A stretch of 51,319 nucleotides of DNA from contig CAMXBD010000003.1 in the NCBI GenBank assembly GCA_947179245.1, positions 1-51,319 of the forward strand. The letters run 5' to 3'. A program made the position numbers and the translations under genes. This document shows, piece by piece, positions 7,741 to 48,968 of this stretch (positions within the stretch are counted from its first letter, which is position 1; the number at the start of each line of letters is the position of its first letter). This DNA comes from an uncultured Lachnospiraceae bacterium (GTDB taxonomy: Bacteria; Bacillota; Clostridia; Lachnospirales; Lachnospiraceae). The notes under the pieces were generated by a model. That model was given only the letters and a program-made list of their open reading frames with translations. It did no database searches and was not told the DNA's origin.

Positions 7741-9111
7741 TTATTCTTTCCACTTAATAGTCGTATTTGCCTTAATTCCGGTTCTGAAATCAAAGTCCCA
7801 TTCACCATTCTCCGCCGGAATAAGCAAAGGCTCCGAAGCTCTTTCTCCGCTCTTTACTTCCTGTGTGGCAAACACAGTGCCCTGATACTCAAAAGTCACT
7901 GTATAAGTCACCGGCTGAGGCGGAATCACAGGATAATTAATCTCCGGTACGTCATAACTTGGTATATCATAATTCGGCACATCATGCTCCGGCTGATTGT
8001 TGTTGTCAGAATCTCCGCCGCCATTCCCGCCCGAAGAACTGTCTCCTCCTGCGTTATCATTGCCGGAACTTACACTGTCCGCCGTCTCCGCTGCCTTGGG
8101 CTGTGTCCCTTGCGCGGTCTGCGGTTTCTGCTCCGGCTGGTTCGGCTGATCCGCCGCCGTTTGCGCCGTCCCAGAATCCTTTACGTCCCTGCTTGCGCGC
8201 GTAGAAGCATTTCCTGCCGTATTTCTCGCTGCAGCGGCATCTGCTGTATCTTCATCTATATCACTATATTCTGAATCCTCTTTCGTATCGGACAACGCTG
8301 TCTGCTCCGGCTCACTCTCTCCGGACTCTTCATTTACCTCTGCTGTGTTACCGGAGTTATCAATCTTCTCCGTTAACTCCATCAAGTCCTTCAACGTTAT
8401 ACCGGTCATAGACTGACCACTCTCCGACATACTTCTCAAGTTGTTGAGTGCCTGTTCCGGAAGCTCCTCATATGCAATATCTCTGAGATCATCCACTGTT
8501 CCATCACTGTATATGATCAGCTCACTGCCTGCCGGAACCAATACCTCTTCCCCGTAAGTTCCGTCCGGAAGAATGGGTGTCGTTCCGACTTTACCCTGAA
8601 AACAGCACAGTTTTGTATTCTTCTCTCCATTATCATCAATATATATTTCCGCACGATATATTGTTCCTCGAACCGCCATGACAGAGTTTGGTGTGGAAGT
8701 CTCATACTGAGACCCTTCACTCAGAGGATGCTGAATCTCATTAGTAACCGCTCCCTGCTCCAGACGGATTCTCGTCTTGGAATTTTCGTCCGTTCCTTCC
8801 GCTTCAACAGAAAATATCGTATCCGCCTCCGCCATCACATATTTATCATTATCTAGCTTCATACGCATGCTGGATTCCTGTGCAACGGTAACTCTGTCAT
8901 CGGATTCCAGATACAAATTCTCCGCCGCGTTCATGTTCCCTACGCCAGCCCTCTCTATCGAGGCGGTTCCTTCCACCTCATAGACTAATATGGAACGGTA
9001 TGATTCTTCTTTATTTAATAAAAGCATACCCACTACTGCTGCAATCACAGCCACCGCAGCACAAATACAAATGATGATTTTTTTATCTGCTATCTGCTTC
9101 TGCATAATCAA
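7741..9111 (-). CDS. FecR-domain secreted/membrane protein with low-complexity linker and InlB-like C-terminal repeat
   Basis: N-terminal TM, FecR-like SIERAGVGNMNAAENLYLESDDRVTVAQESSMRMKLD and TPNSVMAVRGTIYRAEI; Gly/Ser/Asp-rich linker; C-terminal YTVTFEYQGTVFATQEVKSGE. Confidence 0.85.
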   Translation of the reverse strand: MIMQKQIADKKIIICICAAVAVIAAVVGMLLLNKEESYRSILVYEVEGTASIERAGVGNMNAAENLYLESDDRVTVAQESSMRMKLDNDKYVMAEADTIFSVEAEGTDENSKTRIRLEQGAVTNEIQHPLSEGSQYETSTPNSVMAVRGTIYRAEIYIDDNGEKNTKLCCFQGKVGTTPILPDGTYGEEVLVPAGSELIIYSDGTVDDLRDIAYEELPEQALNNLRSMSESGQSMTGITLKDLMELTEKIDNSGNTAEVNEESGESEPEQTALSDTKEDSEYSDIDEDTADAAAARNTAGNASTRASRDVKDSGTAQTAADQPNQPEQKPQTAQGTQPKAAETADSVSSGNDNAGGDSSSGGNGGGDSDNNNQPEHDVPNYDIPSYDVPEINYPVIPPQPVTYTVTFEYQGTVFATQEVKSGERASEPLLIPAENGEWDFDFRTGIKANTTIKWKE

Positions 9112-9147
9112 CCACGCCCCTCTTTCGGCTTACTGCTCCCGCTAACC

Positions 9148-10266
9148 TTAGTATTTCATAAATACATAATCACCGGCTGTTTTTGCATAAAATGAACTGC
9201 CGCCGCGATAAACTGTGCTGTCGCCGTATATTTTCCATTTCCCTTCTGCCAGCTTATACTCTACGCCTGTTTTTAACGAGTACATTCCCGTCTTAGATAT
9301 CACATTCCCGTCTGCTGCCGGGTCTCTTCCGGATACTGTAATACTGCAGGTCATCTCATTGCCTGCCTTATCCTTTATCCTGATCACACAGGAGGAAGAT
9401 GTCCCGTTTGCGCTCACCCGATAGCTTCCGTCCGCTTCAGGAGTTACAAGCTTTTCATTAATTCTGACACTCTCTAAATTGGCTTCCGACACCTGAAATG
9501 CTGTTCCTTCCGGATAAGTCTTTCCCTCCACCAATACGGTCACAGCCGGAGATATGGTATCTACCACGATTCCGCCGGATCTGGCATAAGTGGTCTGTCC
9601 GTCTGCTCCCACAGCTTTCACATATAAAATATAGCTTCCGTCCTTTGACAGAGAAATCCTCTCCGAAGAAGACTGTGCACTTTGCCATGACAGGGAATTC
9701 ATCTGTTCATTTCCCTTGGCTTCAGCAGTCGTATCTGAAACCTGCTCCAGATAGTACTCAAGTGTAACCGCCTGACCGTCCTGATTTGCCAGACATTCGA
9801 ACGCCTGATCATGATTATTAATATATTTATAATTTATCTTGCCGCCCAAATCATACTTCTGGCTCTGCCCCTGCCATTTGATATCAATCACCGGCGCGGC
9901 AATACCCGCCTGTGTCTTGGCATCCACCGATGCCGGCTCATTCTCTGCCCCGGACAAGAAATCAATGCCGTCAACTGCGGCATTATCCGCGTCCACCTCA
10001 CTGCCGGCATTCTCAATATCTGTATTTATTTCACCTCCGGCATTCCCAGCATCTGCATTCACTTCACTATCGATATTCACACCATCATCCGGAATCGCAT
10101 CATCCCCGCTGACCACAGTATTACCAGAAACAGAATCTGCTTCAATCTCTTGAACAACTACTGTATTTTCCTCCGCTGCCAGCATCGTGCCCATCGGCAT
10201 CATACATCCGGTCAGCGCTGCCATACCCAGTACAGATAATCTTCTCCATTTCCCGTACATAATCAC
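9148..10266 (-). CDS. Secreted Ig-like (bacterial cell-surface type) protein
   Basis: Signal peptide (LSVLGMAALTGCMMPMGTMLAAEE), acidic repeat region, Ig-like strands (DGSYILYVKAVGADGQTTYARSGGIVVDTISP). Confidence 0.7.
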   Translation of the reverse strand: MIMYGKWRRLSVLGMAALTGCMMPMGTMLAAEENTVVVQEIEADSVSGNTVVSGDDAIPDDGVNIDSEVNADAGNAGGEINTDIENAGSEVDADNAAVDGIDFLSGAENEPASVDAKTQAGIAAPVIDIKWQGQSQKYDLGGKINYKYINNHDQAFECLANQDGQAVTLEYYLEQVSDTTAEAKGNEQMNSLSWQSAQSSSERISLSKDGSYILYVKAVGADGQTTYARSGGIVVDTISPAVTVLVEGKTYPEGTAFQVSEANLESVRINEKLVTPEADGSYRVSANGTSSSCVIRIKDKAGNEMTCSITVSGRDPAADGNVISKTGMYSLKTGVEYKLAEGKWKIYGDSTVYRGGSSFYAKTAGDYVFMKY

Positions 10267-33199: not shown

Positions 33200-34246
33200 T
33201 CACCTTAAACTCTCTACCGTCCTGCGCAGTCCCTCACGCATATGGGTTCGCGGACGCCATCCCAATCCTTCTATTTTCTTCGTGTCAAGAAGCGCCTTGG
33301 TCGCTGTGGAATACCCCGCCTGTTCTGCCGCATCCGGTATGTCGAAACTTACATTAACGCCATTGTCCTCTGCCAGCCATTCCGCAATCTGCCTGAGTGT
33401 CACTTCCGATTCCGTATCAGAAATATTATATGCTCCCCCGCTTTCTCCTCTTAATAATACTGTAATAACAGCTAACGCCGCGTCCAACGCATAAGTATAG
33501 GAATAGCACTGCGTTCCGGTACTCTTTAAGATTATGTCCCCGCCTGCCGCCGCCTTCTTGATGAATTGGGCGATTGCCTTGGAGTCTGACATGAGCATGG
33601 TAGGGCCATATACCCTGCTAAGGCGCGGAATGACAAAATCAAGCCGATGTGCCTGTGCATAAGCATTGCAAAGCGCTTCACCCACTCTCTTACTCTCCGG
33701 ATACCCTGCCCGCAATGTATTACAATCTAAATAACCCAGATAATCCTCTTTAAATCTGTCCACATCTCCCCGGTTTTCTCCATAGACTTCCACTGATGAG
33801 ACAAAACAGAAACGTTCTGCATGACAGGAGACGGCATAGTCTAACAGATTCTTCGTTCCAATGACGTTGGACGTAATCGTTCCGATGGGATCACCCGAAT
33901 ATTGCAGCGGATGTGTATTGCTTGCAGCATGAATCACATAGTCTGCCCTTCCGCACTCCGGAATCCCTTGATTGATATCACAGGAAATATATCGAAAAGT
34001 GTCTTTATCCCAATACCCACCAAGCCGCCGCCTCGCACTTTCTTCACCTCTGCTGAGTGCAATAATGCTGACCGGACAGTCTATGAGAATCTCCTCATTA
34101 CATTGCATCAATAAATCAACCATGCACTTTCCGATCATGCCTGTGGCTCCGGACAGAAGTATTGTTTTACCCGCCAGTTTATCCCATGGCAGATCCTGAT
34201 TTTGTTTTAACAGTAATTGTACTTCTTCTCTATAAGTCTGCATCAT
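33200..34246 (-). CDS. NAD-dependent epimerase/dehydratase (nucleotide-sugar SDR)
   Basis: TILLSGATGMIGKCMVDLL, VIHAASNTHPLQY, FVSSVEVYGEN, RAGYPESKRVGEALC (YxxxK). Confidence 0.92.
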   Translation of the reverse strand: MMQTYREEVQLLLKQNQDLPWDKLAGKTILLSGATGMIGKCMVDLLMQCNEEILIDCPVSIIALSRGEESARRRLGGYWDKDTFRYISCDINQGIPECGRADYVIHAASNTHPLQYSGDPIGTITSNVIGTKNLLDYAVSCHAERFCFVSSVEVYGENRGDVDRFKEDYLGYLDCNTLRAGYPESKRVGEALCNAYAQAHRLDFVIPRLSRVYGPTMLMSDSKAIAQFIKKAAAGGDIILKSTGTQCYSYTYALDAALAVITVLLRGESGGAYNISDTESEVTLRQIAEWLAEDNGVNVSFDIPDAAEQAGYSTATKALLDTKKIEGLGWRPRTHMREGLRRTVESLR

Positions 34247-34301: not shown

Positions 34302-35573
34302 CTAAACCAGCCATGTTTTGCCCGCATACATAATCTTAAGTTTTTCCCGGTTTTTCAGGAAATACAGCGTCGTCAGGTTTTCGCCTAAATATCCTGCAAA
34401 GCGGTCGGCACGTTCTGAACCCTTTGGTGTGGTAAGCTCTTCCGTCCGCATCAAAACCTTAAAAAGGAAATTGCAATAATCATCGAATACCTCTGCCTTA
34501 GCTATCAGCATATTAAAATTATTGAAAAACTGTTCTCCATCTGCAATGCCATTCTCATAAGCATCCAAATATTCCGGCGCCGTCTCTTTTAACGCCTGCA
34601 GCATTGCATCCCAATCGGATTCGCTTACATATCTGGCATGCTCTTTGGAAATATCTGGATAATAAACGGACGGATAGGGTAAAATCACATCCCACTCCTG
34701 CTCCAATTCCATCAGCCTCTTCATCTGCGCATCACTAATATCAAAAATACGCCTGTAGTGGCAAATTCCCTTGTAAGCCGCGCGACAATTTCTCCACGCA
34801 TGATATGTTGCAGTCAGTTCACAATAATTACGATTTTTGTGAGAAATGTTATCTCCTTGATTGTCTTGGAGATCGGCGAGTTTTTGACTGGTGAGCGCAG
34901 CTCCAACTTGAATAGGATGTATGTATAGCGGTTGCGTATTTCCTATATATTGATTCAATAATGGTCTGTCCAGATGCGATTTGGCTTGGTACACCTGAAT
35001 CTTAGGGATTTCTGATCTGAAATCTGTAGTATATGTCTCCGAACATCTTCTACAATTGCATTCTTCTTCAGCAATTTCCTGAGTCTGCCTTTGTATCATC
35101 TGCCCCAATATCGTAGCATGTCCCGGCAGACTGCTATAATATGCCTCCATCAATTCATTTTCTAATTCATTGGTAAACAAGACGATCTGCGAATCTTCTA
35201 TCCGCAAGTTTTCCACAGAATGTAAAGAAGCTATGATTGCCGAATGGTGTACTTGCGGTGCCGCAATCAGGTAATACTTCGGAAGAATGAAATCAGACAT
35301 GCTGTTTTGCAGTTCGCGCTCCCATGCAGACAAACTCTTGACTGCAATATTGTCAATCTCTGTCAGTGTTTGTTCAGATACTTCTCCGTGGTGCCCGCCG
35401 CTCTCCTCGCAATCCGACACCATAAAGAACAGCGGCTCCTTGTGATATAGTGTTTTGATTGCAGTATAAACCCCGGTCGCAACGATTCCTGCTCCATAGA
35501 TGCAAAAAGAGTTGGTACACAGTTCTTGGAATTGCATAATTTGCTCCTGTTTCGCTTTACTCTGATAAATCAC
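34302..35573 (-). CDS. DUF4422 (capsule-associated glycosyltransferase-like) protein with N-terminal Rossmann-like module
   Basis: C-terminal ELTATYHAWRNCRAAYKGICHYRRIFDI and FNNFNMLIAKAEVFDDYCNFLFKVL; N-terminal SFCIYGAGIVATGVYTAIK. GTG start overlaps the upstream stop (GTGA). Confidence 0.82.
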   Translation of the reverse strand: MIYQSKAKQEQIMQFQELCTNSFCIYGAGIVATGVYTAIKTLYHKEPLFFMVSDCEESGGHHGEVSEQTLTEIDNIAVKSLSAWERELQNSMSDFILPKYYLIAAPQVHHSAIIASLHSVENLRIEDSQIVLFTNELENELMEAYYSSLPGHATILGQMIQRQTQEIAEEECNCRRCSETYTTDFRSEIPKIQVYQAKSHLDRPLLNQYIGNTQPLYIHPIQVGAALTSQKLADLQDNQGDNISHKNRNYCELTATYHAWRNCRAAYKGICHYRRIFDISDAQMKRLMELEQEWDVILPYPSVYYPDISKEHARYVSESDWDAMLQALKETAPEYLDAYENGIADGEQFFNNFNMLIAKAEVFDDYCNFLFKVLMRTEELTTPKGSERADRFAGYLGENLTTLYFLKNREKLKIMYAGKTWLV

Positions 35574-36772
35574 AGTAAATGACTTAAAATATAATTATCT
35601 TCTTTGACAAAATCTTCACTCAGCCATCTGATTTTCTGCTTATTTACTCCCATACCCTCTAAAAAACTACAGACTGATCCGGCTGTCCTCCGGCTGTTAA
35701 TTGCAAGAATAATATAATCATACATTTCATGATTGCAGCTACTTATTTGTTCAGGATCATTTACATCAGGATTCATTCTTCGATATGCGGCATAATTTTT
35801 ATCTAACCAAGCAACCACTTTAACTGTCGTCTGCTCCTTCACATACCGATAAAGGCTTTGCCCCATTTTTCCTGCACCATATATGATAATCCGCGCATAT
35901 GGCTCAATCCCGCCATATGGTGCCAAGATCCCGTTCCTATCTTTCAAGTCAAAATAAGCAATGTTTCTTGTTAATAATAAATTTTTAGCATATTGATTTA
36001 ACTGCCTGTCTAAATATTGTGAATACAATGATTCTGCAAATACTTTTCTTAAATATCCGATCAGACACTTATTCCGCACCAATTCATCCGCATCATAGCA
36101 GTCCATCATAGAACCGGTGCGCTGTATGTAATGATATCCTGCTAAATCAGAAATATAGACTTTCTGCGTTTGTAATATATACGGGTATGTAACCGCAACA
36201 TCTTCCCCGCAATTGATCTGATCATCCACCTGAATCTGAATATCCCATAGAATATCTTTTCGGAACAATTTCGCCCAGATAAACTGGCTTATTCCAAATT
36301 GATAGAATTCCTCCGCGTACAACATAAAAGGAATGATATCTTTCGTCTTATAAACTCCCGGCTCTAATTTGCACGATACCCTCTGGGTATATCCTTCCAT
36401 ATCACAGTAATGATTTGATACAACCAGATCTGCCTCATGCTCCACCATATCGAGACTCAGGCTCTCTATCATGTCAGTTTCTATCCAATCATCACCATCA
36501 ACATAACAAATATATTCGCCTGTCGCAGCCGCCAAGCCGCTCTTTCTTGCCCTGACCAGCCCTTCGTTCTTCTTATGGATTACAACAACTCTGGAATCCA
36601 TTACTGCGTATTGATCACAAATCTGCGCAGATCCGTCAGTTGATCCGTCATCCACGAGAATAATCTGTAATTTATCGTATGTCTGTCCAATAATACTGGA
36701 AATGCATTTCTCAAGGTATGCCGCAACATTATAAATCGGAACGATTACAGAAACTTTCTCATTGTTTTCCAT
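35570..36772 (-). CDS. GT2 glycosyltransferase with C-terminal Rossmann-like module
   Basis: KVSVIVPIYNVAAYLEKCISSIIGQTYDKLQIILVDDGSTDGS, YVDGDDWIE; C-terminal IIIYGAGKMGQSLYRYV. Alternative GTG start at 36805. Confidence 0.9.
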   Translation of the reverse strand: MENNEKVSVIVPIYNVAAYLEKCISSIIGQTYDKLQIILVDDGSTDGSAQICDQYAVMDSRVVVIHKKNEGLVRARKSGLAAATGEYICYVDGDDWIETDMIESLSLDMVEHEADLVVSNHYCDMEGYTQRVSCKLEPGVYKTKDIIPFMLYAEEFYQFGISQFIWAKLFRKDILWDIQIQVDDQINCGEDVAVTYPYILQTQKVYISDLAGYHYIQRTGSMMDCYDADELVRNKCLIGYLRKVFAESLYSQYLDRQLNQYAKNLLLTRNIAYFDLKDRNGILAPYGGIEPYARIIIYGAGKMGQSLYRYVKEQTTVKVVAWLDKNYAAYRRMNPDVNDPEQISSCNHEMYDYIILAINSRRTAGSVCSFLEGMGVNKQKIRWLSEDFVKEDNYILSHLL

Positions 36773-36844
36773 CAGGTCACTTTGCTCCAATCCTTCTAAA
36801 ACCACCTTGTAACAATCTTCAGGGTATTAAAACGTCATGAACAA

Positions 36845-38074
36845 TTATATTTCCACGTTCAGACACACGTAATCACGAAATCCATGTTTTTCTAATATAC
36901 CCTCAATCTCCTGATTGTATATCTTATTGGCAGCGATTAATACAATTGCATCGTCTTTATACGCCTTCAGCTCCTGTATCTCATATATATGATGCCCATA
37001 CATGCTCCTCTGCGCCTCGTTTCGTTTCGTAACTGCAAAGCCGGCTATTTCAATCCCATACTTCTGTAATAGTTCAATGATCTCCTTCGAGACATATCCT
37101 GCTCCATAAATAATCACATGACTTTTCTGCCGTATTCTGGTTAGTATTTCTTCACTAAATTCAATTCCATATATTTTGGTTTCCTGCTGAAGAATACGAA
37201 AAATATATTTTGCAAAAGCTGTTTCTAACCCTTTTTCCACATCCTGTTTATCGGACGCGGAAAGATTCAATATACCACCGGCTATTTTTTTGTACTGATC
37301 TTCCAAAAAAGGCTGTAATCCTACAGCATCTTCATGCTGTGAATAATATTGTAAAATATCTATATACTGTGTAATTTGTCCTATTAAAAGTTTTATCTTA
37401 GCATTAGCGCCGCGTGAAATAGATTTTTCATGAATCCTATAGCGATAATATTTCTTCGGACAGACTATTACTTTTTCTGCAAGGCATAAAGCCCGTAAAA
37501 TAAAATCCCCGCCCTCCCCAATCGAAAGCTTCTTATATCGAAGCCCGTTTTCTTTTATAAAAGAACTCTTATAAAACACTGAGCACAAATAAAGGAAAAA
37601 GTCATTATTCTTTACAAATTCTCCTATTATTTCTCTCCCATTATATACCTTCGGGTAGTTTCTCAAAATTCCTTCACGCAATCCTGTTTCGCTTATATTG
37701 TTTTCTATATGTAGATGCATCCCTAAATAACACATCTCTGAATTATGCTGTTCCGATAGAATATATAGATTTTCTAATGCGTCCGGCTCCAGATAATCAT
37801 CCGAATCAACGAACTGGATATACTTTCCTTTTGCTATATCTAATCCTCTGTTTCTGGATAGAGCTGCACCTATATTCTCTTCATTACATATAATATTAAT
37901 ACGATGATCCTTCTTTTGATATTTATACAATATATCTGTCGAAGAATCTGTCGATTTATCATCAACGAAAATAATTTCTATCTCCTTCAAAGTCTGCGCC
38001 AGTAAACTTTCTATACAGTTTTCCAACATTGATTCCGTATTATATACCGGCACAATTACAGATACTTTAACCAT
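36845..38074 (-). CDS. GT2 glycosyltransferase with C-terminal Rossmann-like module
   Basis: MVKVSVIVPVYNTESMLENCIESLLAQTLKEIEIIFVDDKSTDSS, FVDSDDYLE; C-terminal VIIYGAGYVSKEIIELL. Start at 38074 with GAGGAA upstream. Confidence 0.9.
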   Translation of the reverse strand: MVKVSVIVPVYNTESMLENCIESLLAQTLKEIEIIFVDDKSTDSSTDILYKYQKKDHRINIICNEENIGAALSRNRGLDIAKGKYIQFVDSDDYLEPDALENLYILSEQHNSEMCYLGMHLHIENNISETGLREGILRNYPKVYNGREIIGEFVKNNDFFLYLCSVFYKSSFIKENGLRYKKLSIGEGGDFILRALCLAEKVIVCPKKYYRYRIHEKSISRGANAKIKLLIGQITQYIDILQYYSQHEDAVGLQPFLEDQYKKIAGGILNLSASDKQDVEKGLETAFAKYIFRILQQETKIYGIEFSEEILTRIRQKSHVIIYGAGYVSKEIIELLQKYGIEIAGFAVTKRNEAQRSMYGHHIYEIQELKAYKDDAIVLIAANKIYNQEIEGILEKHGFRDYVCLNVEI

Positions 38075-38167
38075 AGCATTCCTCATACTTTATCACAATA
38101 CTTCTCTAAGCATTTTACAACTCCTGATAGTTCTGGCGAATCGAATCGCCCAGTAACAATATGTTTT

Positions 38168-40507
38168 TCATATGAAACAAGTTTCCTTTAAATATTCGTC
38201 TAGCTCTTTAAATTTGTCTTTAATATCGTTTATCGGCAATACAGCATCGTTTTCCACGGACATAGCCTGTCTCAAACATATTTCAAAGTCCTCTTCTTTT
38301 TTACAAAGAACAATATGTGGATTCTCTTTTATCCATTGATATGATTCCGATACTTTACCCGACAGATTATCAAATGCAACACAGGGCGTATCAGTAACTG
38401 CGCAAAAAATCATCGCATGTAATCTGTCTGTAATTACAACAGATGCCTGTCGTATTTTATCTAACAATGCCATGACATATTCTTCCCTGTTATCCAAGAA
38501 CACATCCACTGTCGATATAGTAGTAAACCGTTTCGCTTCTATTCCCTTTTCCTGCAAAATTCGCGTAATACGAGTCTCATCGATCCCCATAGCTTCTTTG
38601 TCATCCCTGATGCATACCAACCCGCCACTGCGTTCAAACGAGCCCTCATATTTCAGCGATAATGCAATATCCGGAGTCAAAATTTTCCTGACTGAATTAT
38701 CTAATAACTCTGATGCCAGCCGATACGACGCTTTATCTCTCAACATGATTGTCAAGTCAGTATGAAAATTCAATACAGAAGATAATGATTTCTTTTCGCT
38801 TTCTCCTAATCCCGAATCTTCAAAGTACATCGTCTGTGGGAAAATAATGATCTTATTCTCCGGATACTGCTGAATAATATTTTTCGTAATATCTTCCAGC
38901 CATAGCCACAGTGAGCCTAAATATCCGCCGCCGCTAATAATCAGAATATCCTCATCCTGTATTACGTTTTGAATAAGCAGATTCTCTCTTATATACTGTT
39001 GACAGGAAATTTCAATAAACTCAATGTCCGGAAATAATCTACGAAACAGTTCCCTTTCTGCCAGTGCAATTGCATGGTCTCCCAGATTGCTGTAATCGGG
39101 ACTGTTAAATAAGATAAATGCCGGTTTTCTGTCCGCCGCAAATAATTTATCATAATCGGACCATCTGTTTATATATGCAAAATTATTATCATATAGCTTT
39201 TGCTGCATTGCCGCCGCATACGTTCCCTTAACCCAATGTGTGGAGTCCTCCGCTCTCCGGTCCCTTACTTTAAAATAGTTATCGCATACAATCTCCGGCG
39301 CATCGCCCCATGCCAGAAAGGCATGATTATTAAAACAGTAATCCAGACGGCACCCATGTCCGACAGGCATGACCGGCAGTACTTTCTGCCCCTCATCAAA
39401 GACAGTCCCGACTAATTCCTGCTGGTAACAGCTTTGCAGATTACCGTTCACAACATTAACCCGATAACTCCAGCTGCCGGCATAACATGTCTGATGAATC
39501 TTTTTCTTATATAAATCGCACTTTAAATTAAATAAATCAGAATCAAAAGTCTGCCAGACATTCTTATACTCTTCCAGAGACAGCTCAGACAATAAATCCA
39601 AGCCTTCCTTGTTGGTATCTCTTGTAAAAGTGATATGCGGCATGGCGCTCCCGGCATGAACTGCAAATTCTTTCTTTATATTATCGATTTCATCAATAAG
39701 ATTATCACATGGCGTAATCTCTATCGAATACGAACAAGGTGAATTTTTAATCTTATCTGCATTCTTCCAAAAAACATCTGATAATTTTGTTCTTTTCAGC
39801 TCCGCATAATGAAAAGAAAGCTTAAAAAACATACGTTCCAGAAGCTCGTCCGGAAACTGCAATATGGCATCTATCCTAGGTGTGATCGTGCCGTTTGTGA
39901 TAATAGAAAGATAATGTCCTTCATCCAACAGCTCATATGTTAATTCAACAATATCTTTAGATAATAACGTCTCTCCCAAAGCACAGGCATTAATATGACA
40001 GGGACCGCCTAATTTTGCCTGCGATAAAGCTTCTCTTATTTCTTTGGCTGTATATTCAGATGTTATACTTCCCGGCGTAAACTCATGTTTTCGCCAAACA
40101 TAACAATACTCGCAATGAAAATTGCATTCGGTTGTACCATGTACCAGCAGCTCGATAAACTTATGTATCCTGCGGCGTTGAATTGACTGAGGCCACTGGC
40201 ATTTTACCGGCTTCAATTCTATCTCCTGCAAGAAATCATAAACTCTCTGATGCGGAAGACCATATTCGTCACACTGTTCCTCTATCGCCTTAATACTGCT
40301 CTCACGCTCTGCCATGATCAGAACAAACGGAGATTCCAGTTCGCGCAAGCGCCTTGGCTCCATACATATCCGCTGGTCGCCTAAGATGTGCTGCCCCCAT
40401 TTACCGCTGTCATTGTCACTGAATACGGCAATTTCGCATACCGCATCCAGCCGCTCAACCAACGAATAAAAATTTGCTCCTATGCCAAAAGCTGCTAATG
40501 TTCTCAT
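38168..40507 (-). CDS. Three-part fusion: N-terminal Rossmann-like module + radical SAM (SPASM/twitch-like Cys) + polysaccharide pyruvyl transferase
   Basis: FGIGANFYSLVERL; TTECNFHCEYCYVW (CX3CX2C); CYAGSWSYRVNVVNGNLQSCYQQ and CRLDYCFNNH; YSNLGDHAIALAERELF, ISGGGYLG, ITDRLHAMIFCAVTDTPCVAF. Start MRTLAAFG preceded by AGGTGG. Confidence 0.85.
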   Translation of the reverse strand: MRTLAAFGIGANFYSLVERLDAVCEIAVFSDNDSGKWGQHILGDQRICMEPRRLRELESPFVLIMAERESSIKAIEEQCDEYGLPHQRVYDFLQEIELKPVKCQWPQSIQRRRIHKFIELLVHGTTECNFHCEYCYVWRKHEFTPGSITSEYTAKEIREALSQAKLGGPCHINACALGETLLSKDIVELTYELLDEGHYLSIITNGTITPRIDAILQFPDELLERMFFKLSFHYAELKRTKLSDVFWKNADKIKNSPCSYSIEITPCDNLIDEIDNIKKEFAVHAGSAMPHITFTRDTNKEGLDLLSELSLEEYKNVWQTFDSDLFNLKCDLYKKKIHQTCYAGSWSYRVNVVNGNLQSCYQQELVGTVFDEGQKVLPVMPVGHGCRLDYCFNNHAFLAWGDAPEIVCDNYFKVRDRRAEDSTHWVKGTYAAAMQQKLYDNNFAYINRWSDYDKLFAADRKPAFILFNSPDYSNLGDHAIALAERELFRRLFPDIEFIEISCQQYIRENLLIQNVIQDEDILIISGGGYLGSLWLWLEDITKNIIQQYPENKIIIFPQTMYFEDSGLGESEKKSLSSVLNFHTDLTIMLRDKASYRLASELLDNSVRKILTPDIALSLKYEGSFERSGGLVCIRDDKEAMGIDETRITRILQEKGIEAKRFTTISTVDVFLDNREEYVMALLDKIRQASVVITDRLHAMIFCAVTDTPCVAFDNLSGKVSESYQWIKENPHIVLCKKEEDFEICLRQAMSVENDAVLPINDIKDKFKELDEYLKETCFI

Positions 40508-40570
40508 ATAGTCCCACCTGCGTTTGGATTGTTCATTCTTTCTGATAGCCTTTTCTCTCATTGAAATATA

Positions 40571-41914
40571 TTAATAAAAACATAAAAATTGATTTATATC
40601 TATTACTTCTATGTCTCTTTCTCCTACTGCATTCTTTACATCATCATATATCAGACAAGCCGAGATAATAACAGCCTGTACCCTGTCTATAGCGCCTTCC
40701 GGAGAAACAACTATATATCCTTGCAATATACTTCCCTGTTTATCTTTGGATTTGTCAATTACTGCTTCTACTTCCAATTTGTGCTGTATACAAAACTCCA
40801 ACAGCACTTTTCCATTGTTACCACAGCCCCATATTGCAATCCTTTTACCTGCTTTCTTTAATTTCTCATATAAATCTACTACTTTATCCTTTTTACTATA
40901 TAAAAATGCTTTTAAAATACTTTCCTCATGAAACCAGCCGGATTCAAAGCTTTCAGCTGCAAATCGTTCCAATCCTGTTCGTATATATTGATCTGATATG
41001 CCATTATGATGTTTATCTAATGCACATAAATTATGAATGCCTTCCTCTTGTATGAAGTTATAGAAAGTTCTTGCACGTTCAATATTACGATCCTTCTCAA
41101 GTGCATATTTCAATGAAAAGAAAACTCTGTAATAGAAATATGGCGATAATTCTTTGAATTTATCTCTTTTCACCAGCTCCTGTCCCATCTGCATTAACGC
41201 CTTGTAAGCGCATCCGGAATCTCTGTCACATGAAATCCTCCCGGATTCAGAGTGTTCACGAACATAAACCATCACACGGTCATCCTCTAATACTATAGTT
41301 CCTGATGACAGCAATAATGCCATACAGACAAAGTACACGTCATTATTACAGCTTAAATCTTGAAATTCAAGATAATTTTCTCGTATAAAAGTTTTTCTGT
41401 ATAGTTTATTCCATGGCGCTGATGTCCAATATGCAAACTCGCAAGGGGCGCAGTCAGACACTGTAAATGTATTTTTGCAATATCTAGCTTTATATTCTTG
41501 TCCATGAATGATACGCTGCTTATTATGAATCTGCTCCGTAGGCACATGCTTATAATCAAACATAACAATATCTGCTGCTTTATTTTCTAATGTATCGTAT
41601 GCTTTCTCCAGCATCATCTCATCAAAAATATCATCCCCATCTAAAAAGGCAAGATATTCTCCGTTTGCCATGCCCATGCCTTTGTTTCTGGAATAGGCGG
41701 CTCCTAAACGCTTGGAATTGGATACAATCCTCAGTCTGCTGTCTTTTTGTAAGAATTTCTCTAAAATATCCAGTGTGCCATCTGTCGATCCATCGTTCAC
41801 ACAAATCAGCTCGTAATTTGTAAAAGTCTGCCTCAACACACTTTCCAAGCTTTCTTCCAGATACTTTTCTGAGTTATATAGCGGCATAATAATCGATATG
41901 TTGACATTGTCCAT
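40571..41914 (-). CDS. GT2 glycosyltransferase with C-terminal Rossmann-like module
   Basis: ISIIMPLYNSEKYLEESLESVLRQTFTNYELICVNDGSTDGT, FLDGDDIFDE; C-terminal IAIWGCGNNGKVLLEFC; RBS aagggga. Confidence 0.9.
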   Translation of the reverse strand: MDNVNISIIMPLYNSEKYLEESLESVLRQTFTNYELICVNDGSTDGTLDILEKFLQKDSRLRIVSNSKRLGAAYSRNKGMGMANGEYLAFLDGDDIFDEMMLEKAYDTLENKAADIVMFDYKHVPTEQIHNKQRIIHGQEYKARYCKNTFTVSDCAPCEFAYWTSAPWNKLYRKTFIRENYLEFQDLSCNNDVYFVCMALLLSSGTIVLEDDRVMVYVREHSESGRISCDRDSGCAYKALMQMGQELVKRDKFKELSPYFYYRVFFSLKYALEKDRNIERARTFYNFIQEEGIHNLCALDKHHNGISDQYIRTGLERFAAESFESGWFHEESILKAFLYSKKDKVVDLYEKLKKAGKRIAIWGCGNNGKVLLEFCIQHKLEVEAVIDKSKDKQGSILQGYIVVSPEGAIDRVQAVIISACLIYDDVKNAVGERDIEVIDINQFLCFY

Positions 41915-42542: not shown

Positions 42543-44234
42543 TCAACCGATCAAAACATTTTTCCCTTCAAAAGCAAATCCGTATTTTCTAATTCGTTCT
42601 GCCGGAATCCCTCTTTGCTTCAAATCGGTTTCATACTGTTTTTCCTCTATCTGGGCAAGCGCCGCTTCTACAGTGTCTTCTAGGCTGTTGTCCCTTCTGG
42701 GATTATATACTTTGAACTCTATGATATATGCCTCCAGTCCCTCTTTCTTCGGTTCTAACATAATATCATATCGGCCAAATCCACTCTCCCGATTAGATGT
42801 AATATGGTATCTGCCTTCCAATTCTACGATCAGCCCTAATACAAACCCATGATAGAACCGTTCCGGCTCCGCTTTGCCGGATGCACGTTTCCCTGTATCA
42901 AAGTAACTGAATGTTGCACTGGTAACACGGTTCATATATTCGTTCATGGCTTCCACATCGCCCACTAGCAAGGCCTTCACAAAATCATTGTAATCAGAAA
43001 TATTCGCGGCGAACCACCCCCGCACCATGTTCCGGAACATAAGGCTTACTTCGTGATTCGTTAACGTCAGTTCATATTTAGGTGCATCTGTCACGTCCTC
43101 TGTATCATATCTCTCATAGTTCAGCACCTTCAGATAACCGCTTGCCACAAGGAGACTCCATATCGCATATTCATTGTCGTCCAGCTGGCTATAGACAATC
43201 TGTTCATCAATCGGAATAAATAAATGCCCACCCTGCAACAGATACTCGAAGGATTCTTTCACTGCCTTATTCCCCTCGCGGAGCAGTTTCCCTACAAGGC
43301 TGTTGGAGCTGGTGTTCGCCCAGTATGTTGTGAGATTTCCTGTATCCAGATAATTTAATATAGACCAAGGATTATATACATCTTCCCATTCTCCAAATAT
43401 GAAACCGTCATACCAGCGCTTTACCTCATTCTTCTTTTCAAAACCATATTCATCCATTGCATTAAAAACTTCGTTTTCCGTAAAACCAAAGGCACTCCCA
43501 TATTCGTTTGACGTAGTTGTCACCACTTTCAGATTATTCAGATCTGAGAAAATTGATTCTTTACTGACTCTGGTTATCCCTGTCATTATCGCCCTTTCAA
43601 GCCATGGGTTTGTCTTAAATGCCGAATTAAAAAGACTTCTGGTAAAAGAAACTAGTTTCTCCCAGTATCCATGTACATATGCCTCCTGCATGGGCGTATC
43701 ATATTCATCCAAAAGAATGATGACCTTCTTATGATAATAACGGCATAAATATTCCGATAACTGATGCAGCGCTAATGTTGCGTCAACATCACCCATATCA
43801 ATGGACTTCCTGCGAAACGTGTCTTTTTCCTGTTCTGTCAGGCAATCCCCTTCCAGCAAAAAAGCGCACCTCGAATATTCACTTGCAATCAACTGGCATA
43901 TTTTGGCACGCGCATCCTCATAATTTGGTTCTTTCACATTTGCAAAAGAAAGGCTGATGACAGGATATGTTCCCTGCAAGGTACGGAATTTTGCTTCCTT
44001 CCAGATGGCAAGGCGTTCAAATAAATCATTTCTCCCCACATACTTTAATGAAAAAAACTGTTCCACCATGCTCATCGTCAAGGTTTTCCCAAATCTTCGC
44101 GGGCGGGTAATCAGCGTTACCTCATCACCGCTCTCCCACCATTCCTTTATAAAAAAAGTTTTATCAATATAGAAGTAATTATTTTCAATTATCTTACTAA
44201 AATCCTGTATTCCGATTCCTATTGTTCTAGCCAT
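42543..44234 (-). CDS. AAA-ATPase-like protein with C-terminal PD-(D/E)XK nuclease-like domain
   Basis: FYIDKTFFIKEWWESGDEVTLITRPRRFGKTLTMSMVEQFF, ILLDEYDTPMQEAY, C-terminal ESGFGRYDIMLEPKKEGLEAYIIEFKV. Confidence 0.93.
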   Translation of the reverse strand: MARTIGIGIQDFSKIIENNYFYIDKTFFIKEWWESGDEVTLITRPRRFGKTLTMSMVEQFFSLKYVGRNDLFERLAIWKEAKFRTLQGTYPVISLSFANVKEPNYEDARAKICQLIASEYSRCAFLLEGDCLTEQEKDTFRRKSIDMGDVDATLALHQLSEYLCRYYHKKVIILLDEYDTPMQEAYVHGYWEKLVSFTRSLFNSAFKTNPWLERAIMTGITRVSKESIFSDLNNLKVVTTTSNEYGSAFGFTENEVFNAMDEYGFEKKNEVKRWYDGFIFGEWEDVYNPWSILNYLDTGNLTTYWANTSSNSLVGKLLREGNKAVKESFEYLLQGGHLFIPIDEQIVYSQLDDNEYAIWSLLVASGYLKVLNYERYDTEDVTDAPKYELTLTNHEVSLMFRNMVRGWFAANISDYNDFVKALLVGDVEAMNEYMNRVTSATFSYFDTGKRASGKAEPERFYHGFVLGLIVELEGRYHITSNRESGFGRYDIMLEPKKEGLEAYIIEFKVYNPRRDNSLEDTVEAALAQIEEKQYETDLKQRGIPAERIRKYGFAFEGKNVLIG

Positions 44235-46895: not shown

Positions 46896-48968
46896 ATGAT
46901 AGAACTTAAAAATATTCAGGAATTTGAACAATGGCTGGTTGCACAAAATAAAATATATCTTTACGGTGCTGGTAAAATGTGTGACAAGTTGATAAAAAAA
47001 ATACATCATATGGGCTTAAAGGACTCTGTTCAAAGTATTTTGGTTTCAGATATCAGCCATACTTTCAAAACATTATTCGGCGTAAATGCCGTAAAATTTA
47101 ACGCAAATGAGATATCCCGAGAAATACCCATCTTACTTGCTGTTGCCGGTTTGCCCCAAAAAGAAATTATGGCTTTTCTTCAACAACAAAATATCAATCA
47201 TTTTGTAATATTATCAGACGATTTTGAAAACAAGTTAAATGAAAATCTAAACCAGATAGAAGCCCCTGAATTAAAGGAAAAAATATATGATTATTCCAAA
47301 AATAATAGCGGACAGGCTCCAAAAGATATTTTGTTCTTATCCCCTCCATATTGGGATTTCCACTCACCTTTCAGTGCAGTACCCTGCCTTGTTGCCGAAT
47401 TAAAGCAGCATGGTTATTCCGTGGCTCAATACGACATTGGTATTCATTGCATACACCATTTAATTCATGAAAAGTGGAAAGAATCCGCCGAGCAGTGCTT
47501 AACCGAATCTTTCTATAACAATACATTCAAAAATTACGAAAATAATGAATATTCTTCCTATGAGGAATACAGGGATGACATGTGGTTTTTCAAATCAGAT
47601 GGATTTGATGTGGCTCTGGTTAAAACCAGATATTTTGAATTAAACGCTGTACAAAAAAGAGTTTTGGAAGCATTTTACTCCAAAATTTATCTTTTTGACA
47701 TAACAGATATAGATTTTGACAGATGCAGCAATCTGGAATCAGAAATTAACCAATGGTATTCACGGAATATGCTTGAGACTTTATTTACCGAGGGACTCAA
47801 AGAAATATTCATCAACATCCCGAAAGTTATCGGTATTTCAATTACCAGTACCTGTCAGTTTATTCCCGGCTGTATTTTAGCGGAGTTAATCAAGCACTGC
47901 CGACCGGACGTCAAAATTATTTTGGGTGGAAGCTGTGCAGATTTATTTGCGAACAGTTCTTATGCCCCAAAAACAGATATCAAGAAATATTTTGATTATA
48001 TTATTATCGGAGAAGGTGAAACTGCCCTTGTTAATCTTATGCGACATTTCGATAATATGGCTGCTTTGGATACCATTCCTAACTTAATGTTCATAGACTC
48101 CGACAATGAAATCCGTTATACAAAACAAATTGTTGAAGATGTCACCAGACTTCCCGCACCGGATTATGACGGCTTAAATCTGGATTTGTATCTGGCTCCA
48201 GAACTTACCCTGCCTTACCAGACCTCCAGAGGCTGCCATTACGGATATTGTGCTTTTTGTAATCATGATGAAAAATACAGGCATAACTATCGTTCCAAAC
48301 AAATGGATACGGTTGTGAAAGACTTATTATCACTATCCGGGAAATACAACAACAAATGTTTCCAATTCGTAGACGAAGCGATCCGTCCCGATTGTTTTAA
48401 AGATATGATCGAAGAAATGGATAAACACAAGGAATTCAAAGAAATGAAATGGTTCTACTACTCCAGAGTCAGCCGTAAGTATGATGAAGAGTTATTAAGA
48501 AAAGCGCACGCCAACGGCTGTGAAATGGTCATGTTTGGAGTCGAAAGTTTCAACCAGAGACTGCTAAATTTTATAAAGAAAGGTATTACCGCAGATACAT
48601 CAAAATATTGTCTGGAATTGTTTCACAAATGCGGTATAAAAACTTATGCATGGTTATTGTGTAACCTGCCCTCCGAAACACTTGAAGAAGCCAAAGAAGA
48701 TTTAGAAGAGGTAAAGCGAATGCATAAATATATCGATGCATTCTCAGTCGGTGTATTTCGTTTAGAACGTAATACAGATATGTACATCAGCCCGGAAAAA
48801 TATAACATAATAAGCATTAACCCAGATGATCCGCGGAAATTTCAATCCCATAAAGATAATGTACCGATTGATAAAAACAGCATTTTGAATTTTGCCGCGC
48901 AAGAGTACTCACGCTATCAAAAGGAATGCCATGCCTTGGGAAACAGATATACGATTTTTTTTGAATGA
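46896..48968 (+). CDS. B12-binding-type radical SAM protein with N-terminal Rossmann-like module
   Basis: IYLYGAGKMCDKLIKK; DILFLSPPYWDFHSP; IILGGSCADLFAN; IIIGEGETALVNLM; TSRGCHYGYCAFCNH (CX4CX2C). Confidence 0.88.
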   Translation: MIELKNIQEFEQWLVAQNKIYLYGAGKMCDKLIKKIHHMGLKDSVQSILVSDISHTFKTLFGVNAVKFNANEISREIPILLAVAGLPQKEIMAFLQQQNINHFVILSDDFENKLNENLNQIEAPELKEKIYDYSKNNSGQAPKDILFLSPPYWDFHSPFSAVPCLVAELKQHGYSVAQYDIGIHCIHHLIHEKWKESAEQCLTESFYNNTFKNYENNEYSSYEEYRDDMWFFKSDGFDVALVKTRYFELNAVQKRVLEAFYSKIYLFDITDIDFDRCSNLESEINQWYSRNMLETLFTEGLKEIFINIPKVIGISITSTCQFIPGCILAELIKHCRPDVKIILGGSCADLFANSSYAPKTDIKKYFDYIIIGEGETALVNLMRHFDNMAALDTIPNLMFIDSDNEIRYTKQIVEDVTRLPAPDYDGLNLDLYLAPELTLPYQTSRGCHYGYCAFCNHDEKYRHNYRSKQMDTVVKDLLSLSGKYNNKCFQFVDEAIRPDCFKDMIEEMDKHKEFKEMKWFYYSRVSRKYDEELLRKAHANGCEMVMFGVESFNQRLLNFIKKGITADTSKYCLELFHKCGIKTYAWLLCNLPSETLEEAKEDLEEVKRMHKYIDAFSVGVFRLERNTDMYISPEKYNIISINPDDPRKFQSHKDNVPIDKNSILNFAAQEYSRYQKECHALGNRYTIFFE

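Follow-up and report, generated by a model that had tools for sequence, protein, structure and literature searches.

The window, the whole stretch of 51,319 nucleotides that was analysed, comes from an uncultured Lachnospiraceae bacterium and carries on its reverse strand an open frame, 38168-40561, with zero internal stops over 797 codons. The chain that it encodes runs from a Rossmann-like module through a radical SAM enzyme to a PF04230 pyruvyltransferase (PT). The features of this fusion and of its neighbors, which lie in a glycan island whose start is marked by a drop in GC from ~0.46 to 0.36-0.40 at ~30-31 kb, are given below, with loci compared across genomes labelled L.

33200-34246, reverse strand: SDR sugar-nucleotide epimerase/dehydratase-like enzyme (58% in L029; an SDR, 28%, in the same place in L050)
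34302-35573, reverse strand: DUF4422 putative glycosyltransferase (position conserved in L027-L029 and L050)
35570-36805, reverse strand: GT2 glycosyltransferase with a C-terminal Rossmann module
36845-38086, reverse strand: GT2 glycosyltransferase with a C-terminal Rossmann module (58-61% orthologues beside the fusion in L027-L029; 39% in L050)
38081-38171, reverse strand: SGNH/GDSL hydrolase gene remnant (MKNILLLGDSIRQNYQEL* and a 3' scrap; intact genes of ~200 aa by the fusion in L027, L028, L029 and L050)
38168-40561, reverse strand: fusion ORF (797 aa; probable start at 40507, Met19, giving 779 aa)
38174-39136, reverse strand: PF04230 pyruvyltransferase domain (residues 476-796; from Pfam, and from Pvg1p 5AX7 by sequence and fold)
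38354-38740, reverse strand: span of the putative PEP-binding residues R608, R713, H715 and K736 (equivalent to CsaB residues by alignment)
39167-40171, reverse strand: radical SAM core and twitch-like domain (residues 131-465; from PF04055 and fold matches)
39335-39487, reverse strand: four auxiliary-cluster cysteines, C359, C378, C404 and C409 (invariant, 30/30)
40103-40126, reverse strand: CX3CX2C motif, C146/C150/C153, predicted ligands of the SAM [4Fe-4S] cluster (invariant, 30/30)
40226-40507, reverse strand: N-terminal Rossmann-like module (about residues 19-112; alternating strands and helices in the AlphaFold2 model)
40571-41914, reverse strand: GT2 glycosyltransferase with a C-terminal Rossmann module, upstream of the fusion

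An earlier note on this DNA began the protein at 40507, the codon of Met19. This is probably correct, because every sequence of the four-member fusion alignment has that Met and an AGGTGG-like ribosome site closely precedes it. The note had also read the frame as a single polypeptide, and this reading holds, with full-length relatives and a confident AlphaFold2 model of the whole chain (pLDDT 91.8, pTM 0.91) now added to the stop-free ORF; the motifs that it quoted are all found in the translation. The same note had named an assembly or frameshift artefact joining two genes as what could refute the fusion. The draft assembly is fragmented (233 contigs, 87.6% complete), the window being one of those contigs, and this would leave room for such an error, but the identical junction occurs in five genomes, one of them from another class, and we rule the artefact out as having a practically negligible likelihood. 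These five genomes, the source and four others, span two classes of the phylum: the full-length fusions of L027, L028 and L029, from other Lachnospiraceae, are 68-70% identical to the window fusion, and searching the phylum with a radical SAM profile recovered that of L050 (genome G691, from a different class), with 801 aa and 46% identity. At L030 both enzymes are encoded separately by adjacent genes. Because the five fusions group together as one clade in both domain trees (support 100 for the radical SAM domain and 94 for the PT), phylogeny points to a single fusion event followed by vertical descent or transfer, with separate genes elsewhere.

The radical SAM half matches PF04055 at residues 143-228 of the fusion (39.2 bits against a cut-off of 29.5), and its best Foldseek matches are all radical SAM proteins, the fold neighbors being SuiB, SkfB, DesII, BlsE, anSME, PqqE, BtrN, EpeE, MoaA and AbmM, among which BlsE gives the most balanced TM-score (0.54/0.55). 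Exactly seven cysteines are invariant across 30 radical SAM sequences, those of CX3CX2C, C359-X13-G-X4-C378 and C404-X4-C409, and over C359/C378 the sequence can be aligned to the Cys-X-Gly-X-Cys stretch of SkfB (6EFN). As judged from this spacing, the auxiliary motif fits a twitch-like domain for one Fe-S cluster. The label "SPASM/twitch-like" given earlier therefore stands in its second part and falls in its first, since a full SPASM domain has seven cysteines (CX9-15GX4C-gap-CX2CX5CX3C-gap-C), whereas here only four C-terminal cysteines are invariant and the second half is CX4C. The invariant polar residues of this half, N223, S249, H251, N267 and D286, would, we infer, suit a sugar. Viperin was rejected as an identity (NF038283 scored 34.3 against 180 bits, with only the SAM-binding stretch matched, and the PADLOC pVip match was weak), as was any other defense role, for which the weak matches were confined to the SAM-binding stretch and lay far under the cut-offs.

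No cysteine beyond the seven cluster ligands is invariant in the 30 sequences (C188 reaches 27/30 and C193 26/30), and because these extra cysteines vary, a universal hydrogen-donor cysteine like that of NeoN is not evident. The candidate donor columns include 308, with Cys in 12/30, and 285, with Cys in 13/30, and four sequences have no cysteine at 276, 285 or 308. A clear diagnosis as epimerase or dehydrogenase from a conserved donor cysteine thus failed, and with variable donor positions and no extra invariant cysteine, epimerization and oxidation are indistinguishable. Column 308 holds Cys (12) or Pro (18) and nothing else, and Cys285 is found in 12 of the 18 Pro308 rows versus 1 of the 12 Cys308 rows (Fisher p 0.002, ignoring the kinship of the sequences). 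These near-exclusive columns may mark different modes of radical quenching, the related sequences not being independent.

Sugar-acting enzymes (BlsE, DesII, BtrN, AbmM) stand among the fold neighbors of this half, and its best fold and sequence matches also include the peptide-modifying SuiB, SkfB and anSME. The best Foldseek E-values belong to these twitch-SPASM maturases, and SkfB, which aligns over the CX(n)GX4C stretch, is a weak sequence match as well, as might be expected if the radical SAM half were a protein or peptide maturase (RiPP- or sulfatase-type) fused by happenstance. We consider this very unlikely: the maturases target peptides or proteins, whereas the fusion has a glycan context and a four-cysteine auxiliary set, its surroundings are glycosyltransferases, a flippase and a polymerase, the NCBIfam maturase cut-offs are not approached, and casual inspection turned up no precursor-peptide gene. 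The sugar-acting BlsE, DesII, BtrN, NeoN and HygY resemble the fusion in having a radical SAM core and an auxiliary-cluster C-terminal domain, with identities to its radical SAM half of 11-17% for those compared. They are enzymes of antibiotic pathways, and to our knowledge none lies in a capsule operon and none is fused to PF04230.

In the other half, PF04230 is matched at residues 492-732 (111.5 bits; cut-off 25.3), and the nearest solved structure is Pvg1p (5AX7; fold E 1.4e-11). The residues implicated in PEP binding in CsaB/Pvg1p are R148/R217, R306/R337, H308/H339 and K328/K361 (PMC10435577); R608, R713, H715 and K736 of the fusion match CsaB R148, R306, H308 and K328, and in the PT alignment R608, H715 and K736 are conserved in 34/34 sequences and R713 in 31/34. 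The specific CsaB equivalog, TIGR03609, was rejected at 32.5 bits, under its cut-off of 213.1, and this score would be compatible with another transferase of the same fold that is not a ketal pyruvyltransferase. Such an identity is nonetheless highly improbable, with every residue implicated in PEP binding retained and a true pyruvyltransferase, Pvg1p, as the closest solved structure. Pvg1p and CsaB are like the PT half in fold and in the R/R/H/K PEP-binding residues, but no paper was found that describes a radical SAM fusion or pairing for either.

The fusion's own N-terminal module has no Pfam match, whereas sister modules pass the PglD_N or Methyltransf_14 cut-offs. A home-made profile built from the modules of these loci matches the fusion N-terminus, the C-termini of three window GT2s and a stand-alone protein, and the module looks like a common docking or nucleotide-binding tag of fusion-cluster enzymes. 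The profile finds it on 15 of 19 GT2s of fusion clusters versus 4 of 66 in other loci, counts that are biased because the profile was part-seeded from the window.

Common to the fusion loci is a block in the order fusion, SGNH, GT2, GT2, DUF4422, SDR, which varies in that the SDR is missing in L027 and L028, an extra gene is present in L029 and one GT2 is less similar in L050, from the other class. The intact SGNH gene overlaps the 3' end of the fusion in L027, L028, L029 and L050, and that of the window has been cut down by an internal deletion to 18 codons and a 3' scrap. The remnant suggests that the gene has decayed naturally or that the glycan varies within the population. Since the gene is so reduced and no intact SGNH copy was found elsewhere in the source genome (87.6% complete), the fusion enzyme may work without SGNH here, or the glycan may have lost a modification.

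No Pfam match covers the N-terminal 215 aa of the DUF4422 protein (34929-35573, reverse strand). A second, distinct radical SAM protein, absent from the window, is encoded in the fusion clusters L028 (8835-10016), L029 (14200-15387) and L050 (13263-14336), and in L028 and L029 it has a CSLKCKxC motif and an N-terminal Rossmann module. The window island also holds, beside a GT2, a radical SAM protein of the B12-binding type that has 280 additional aa at its N-terminus (46896-48968, forward strand) and resembles RiPP C-methyltransferase and PhpK models at scores below the cut-offs, and an AAA-ATPase_like/PDDEXK_9 protein (42543-44234, reverse strand), a 34% relative of which lies near the pair in L036.

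Distribution of the radical SAM family is patchy: it is present in 16 of 396 genomes sampled from the family (source included) and, further afield, in 2 others among 388 class genomes and 1 other among 398 phylum genomes. Among 31 radical SAM proteins of this family, 5 carry PF04230 as a fusion, 24 are separated by 0-2 genes from a PF04230 gene on their own strand, and 2 show neither arrangement; most of the separate gene pairs touch or overlap. In searches with the radical SAM sequence only, so that the PT played no part in locus selection, the pair (as a fusion, or on one strand with at most two genes between) was present in 18/20 loci outside the source genome, a count that includes L063 with its broken radical SAM gene. 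The two unpaired exceptions are L034, where the radical SAM domain shares one chain with an SGNH hydrolase and a Rossmann module, and L062, where the gene is broken. A chance PF04230 neighbor is unlikely because the 3.4-Mb source genome has three PF04230 matches. Radical SAM and PT distances over 23 cognate pairs gave a Mantel r of 0.34 (121/20000 permutations), to which shared organism history may contribute. As judged from gene order, then, the pair is functional and not accidental, and the earlier inference of a coupling between radical SAM chemistry and pyruvylation appears supported by the near-constant adjacency of separate genes and by their capsule and glycan clusters.

Several of these loci have features of their own. 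The L034 fusion (8055-10025, reverse strand; 656 aa), with the PT absent nearby, is a second Rosetta-stone link, and L039 (6737-11694, forward strand) carries a tandem PT-radical SAM-PT-radical SAM array, two diverged pairs at a single locus. The broken genes of L062 (8958-10339) and L063 (9268-10363) are frameshifted members of the fusion's family and hint that some genomes have recently been losing the system. FrhB/F420-hydrogenase-beta proteins paired with PF04230 in glycan loci (L044) likewise place an Fe-S oxidoreductase beside PF04230, but theirs is an Fe-S family unrelated to the radical SAM half of the fusion and without SAM radical chemistry.

The two halves might instead modify different parts of one glycan independently, with fusion and adjacency serving co-expression or co-localization only, and the intervention of 1-2 genes in five loci, with an order that can be reversed (L036, L040, L052, L058, L060), and the reshuffling of PT trees relative to radical SAM trees would all agree with this. 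Independent action is nevertheless unlikely in our view, as the touching or overlapping of most pairs is a stricter adjacency than shared cluster membership demands, and the chain is predicted to fold as a single unit at the pTM given above. Co-localization does not prove that the radical SAM and PT halves have one target residue.

The separate pair is also found in a cultured organism, Lachnospira eligens ATCC 27750, inside an annotated Wzx/Wzy-type capsule operon with the order CpsB, Wzz, CpsD, sugar transferase, glycosyltransferase, HAD, EpsG, glycosyltransferase, PT (EUBELI_RS11780), radical SAM (EUBELI_RS11775) and Wzx-like; between the CpsB and Wzx-like genes no sugar-nucleotide enzyme is annotated. 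At other loci the pair adjoins MurJ- or Wzx-like flippases and a Wzy-like protein. Our literature searches found neither work on the structure of the L. eligens capsule nor a link to flagellin glycosylation, and the sole annotated operon is this capsule one. Radical chemistry probably belongs to surface-polysaccharide decoration in these bacteria.

On balance we lean, with modest confidence, toward the fusion having two functions in the tailoring of a surface polysaccharide (capsule/EPS-type): a radical modification of a sugar on the lipid-linked repeat unit would be coupled to pyruvylation. The radical SAM half, using SAM and the twitch auxiliary Fe-S cluster, would abstract a hydrogen atom from a sugar ring carbon within the undecaprenyl-pyrophosphate-linked repeat unit, with stereo-inversion (as for NeoN/HygY) or hydroxyl oxidation (as for BtrN) as the outcome. 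The PF04230 half would then transfer pyruvate from PEP to the same or a neighboring sugar as a ketal, in the cytoplasm and before flipping. The Rossmann-like module, common to the glycosyltransferases of the same clusters, would probably bind a nucleotide or nucleotide-sugar, or dock partners, and the SGNH hydrolase would usually be part of the set, though deleted in the window. We place the radical step on an assembled, lipid-linked sugar by analogy with the PF04230 enzymes CsaB and WcfO, which work on lipid-linked precursors in the cytoplasm (PMC6801904), and with NeoN/HygY, which act on assembled sugars, NeoN epimerizing the assembled aminoglycoside (PMC10991966).

The near-constant PT company of the radical SAM family would also be accounted for if this half acted after the PT on the pyruvate substituent itself, for example by changing the ketal stereochemistry or forming a lactyl-type ether. 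We regard this as quite improbable: no precedent was found, and there are PT homologues without such a radical SAM neighbor (L041-L045). Reduction, moreover, needs an electron donor beyond the usual SAM chemistry. Returning to the coupled modification of the repeat unit, a bolder version of it is that a dedicated radical SAM family, together with the pyruvyltransferase, tailors lipid-carried capsule/EPS repeat units, for instance through post-assembly inversion at a non-acidic ring carbon; this we put forward as a tentative possibility that is rather doubtful at present. L-Altrose is the C5 epimer of D-galactose, and known uronate C5-epimerase chemistry would not make such a change. A connection of L-altrose (PMC10794557) with the radical SAM family should be taken as a lead and does not amount to evidence.

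Both domains of the fusion belong to known superfamilies, and it is their conserved pairing that is real and undescribed. In the open-access literature searched we found no description of a radical SAM-PF04230 pair, whether as a fusion or placed in a capsule operon, and the earlier note, which knew of no such fusion, is borne out within that literature. Work on radical SAM enzymes is familiar where antibiotic sugars, cofactors and peptides are concerned; we are aware of no member demonstrated to modify a bacterial surface polysaccharide, and the open-access literature searched yielded no example. The genomic case for the radical SAM-PT pair is solid, and the chemical reading is drawn by analogy from known enzymes. 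The conserved PT partnership in gut Lachnospiraceae, including a cultured strain, makes the question testable, and the fusion offers a naturally linked enzyme pair for glycan engineering. For the bacteria themselves, the radical SAM-PT pair could explain how rare or inverted sugars enter the capsules that face the gut environment and phages.
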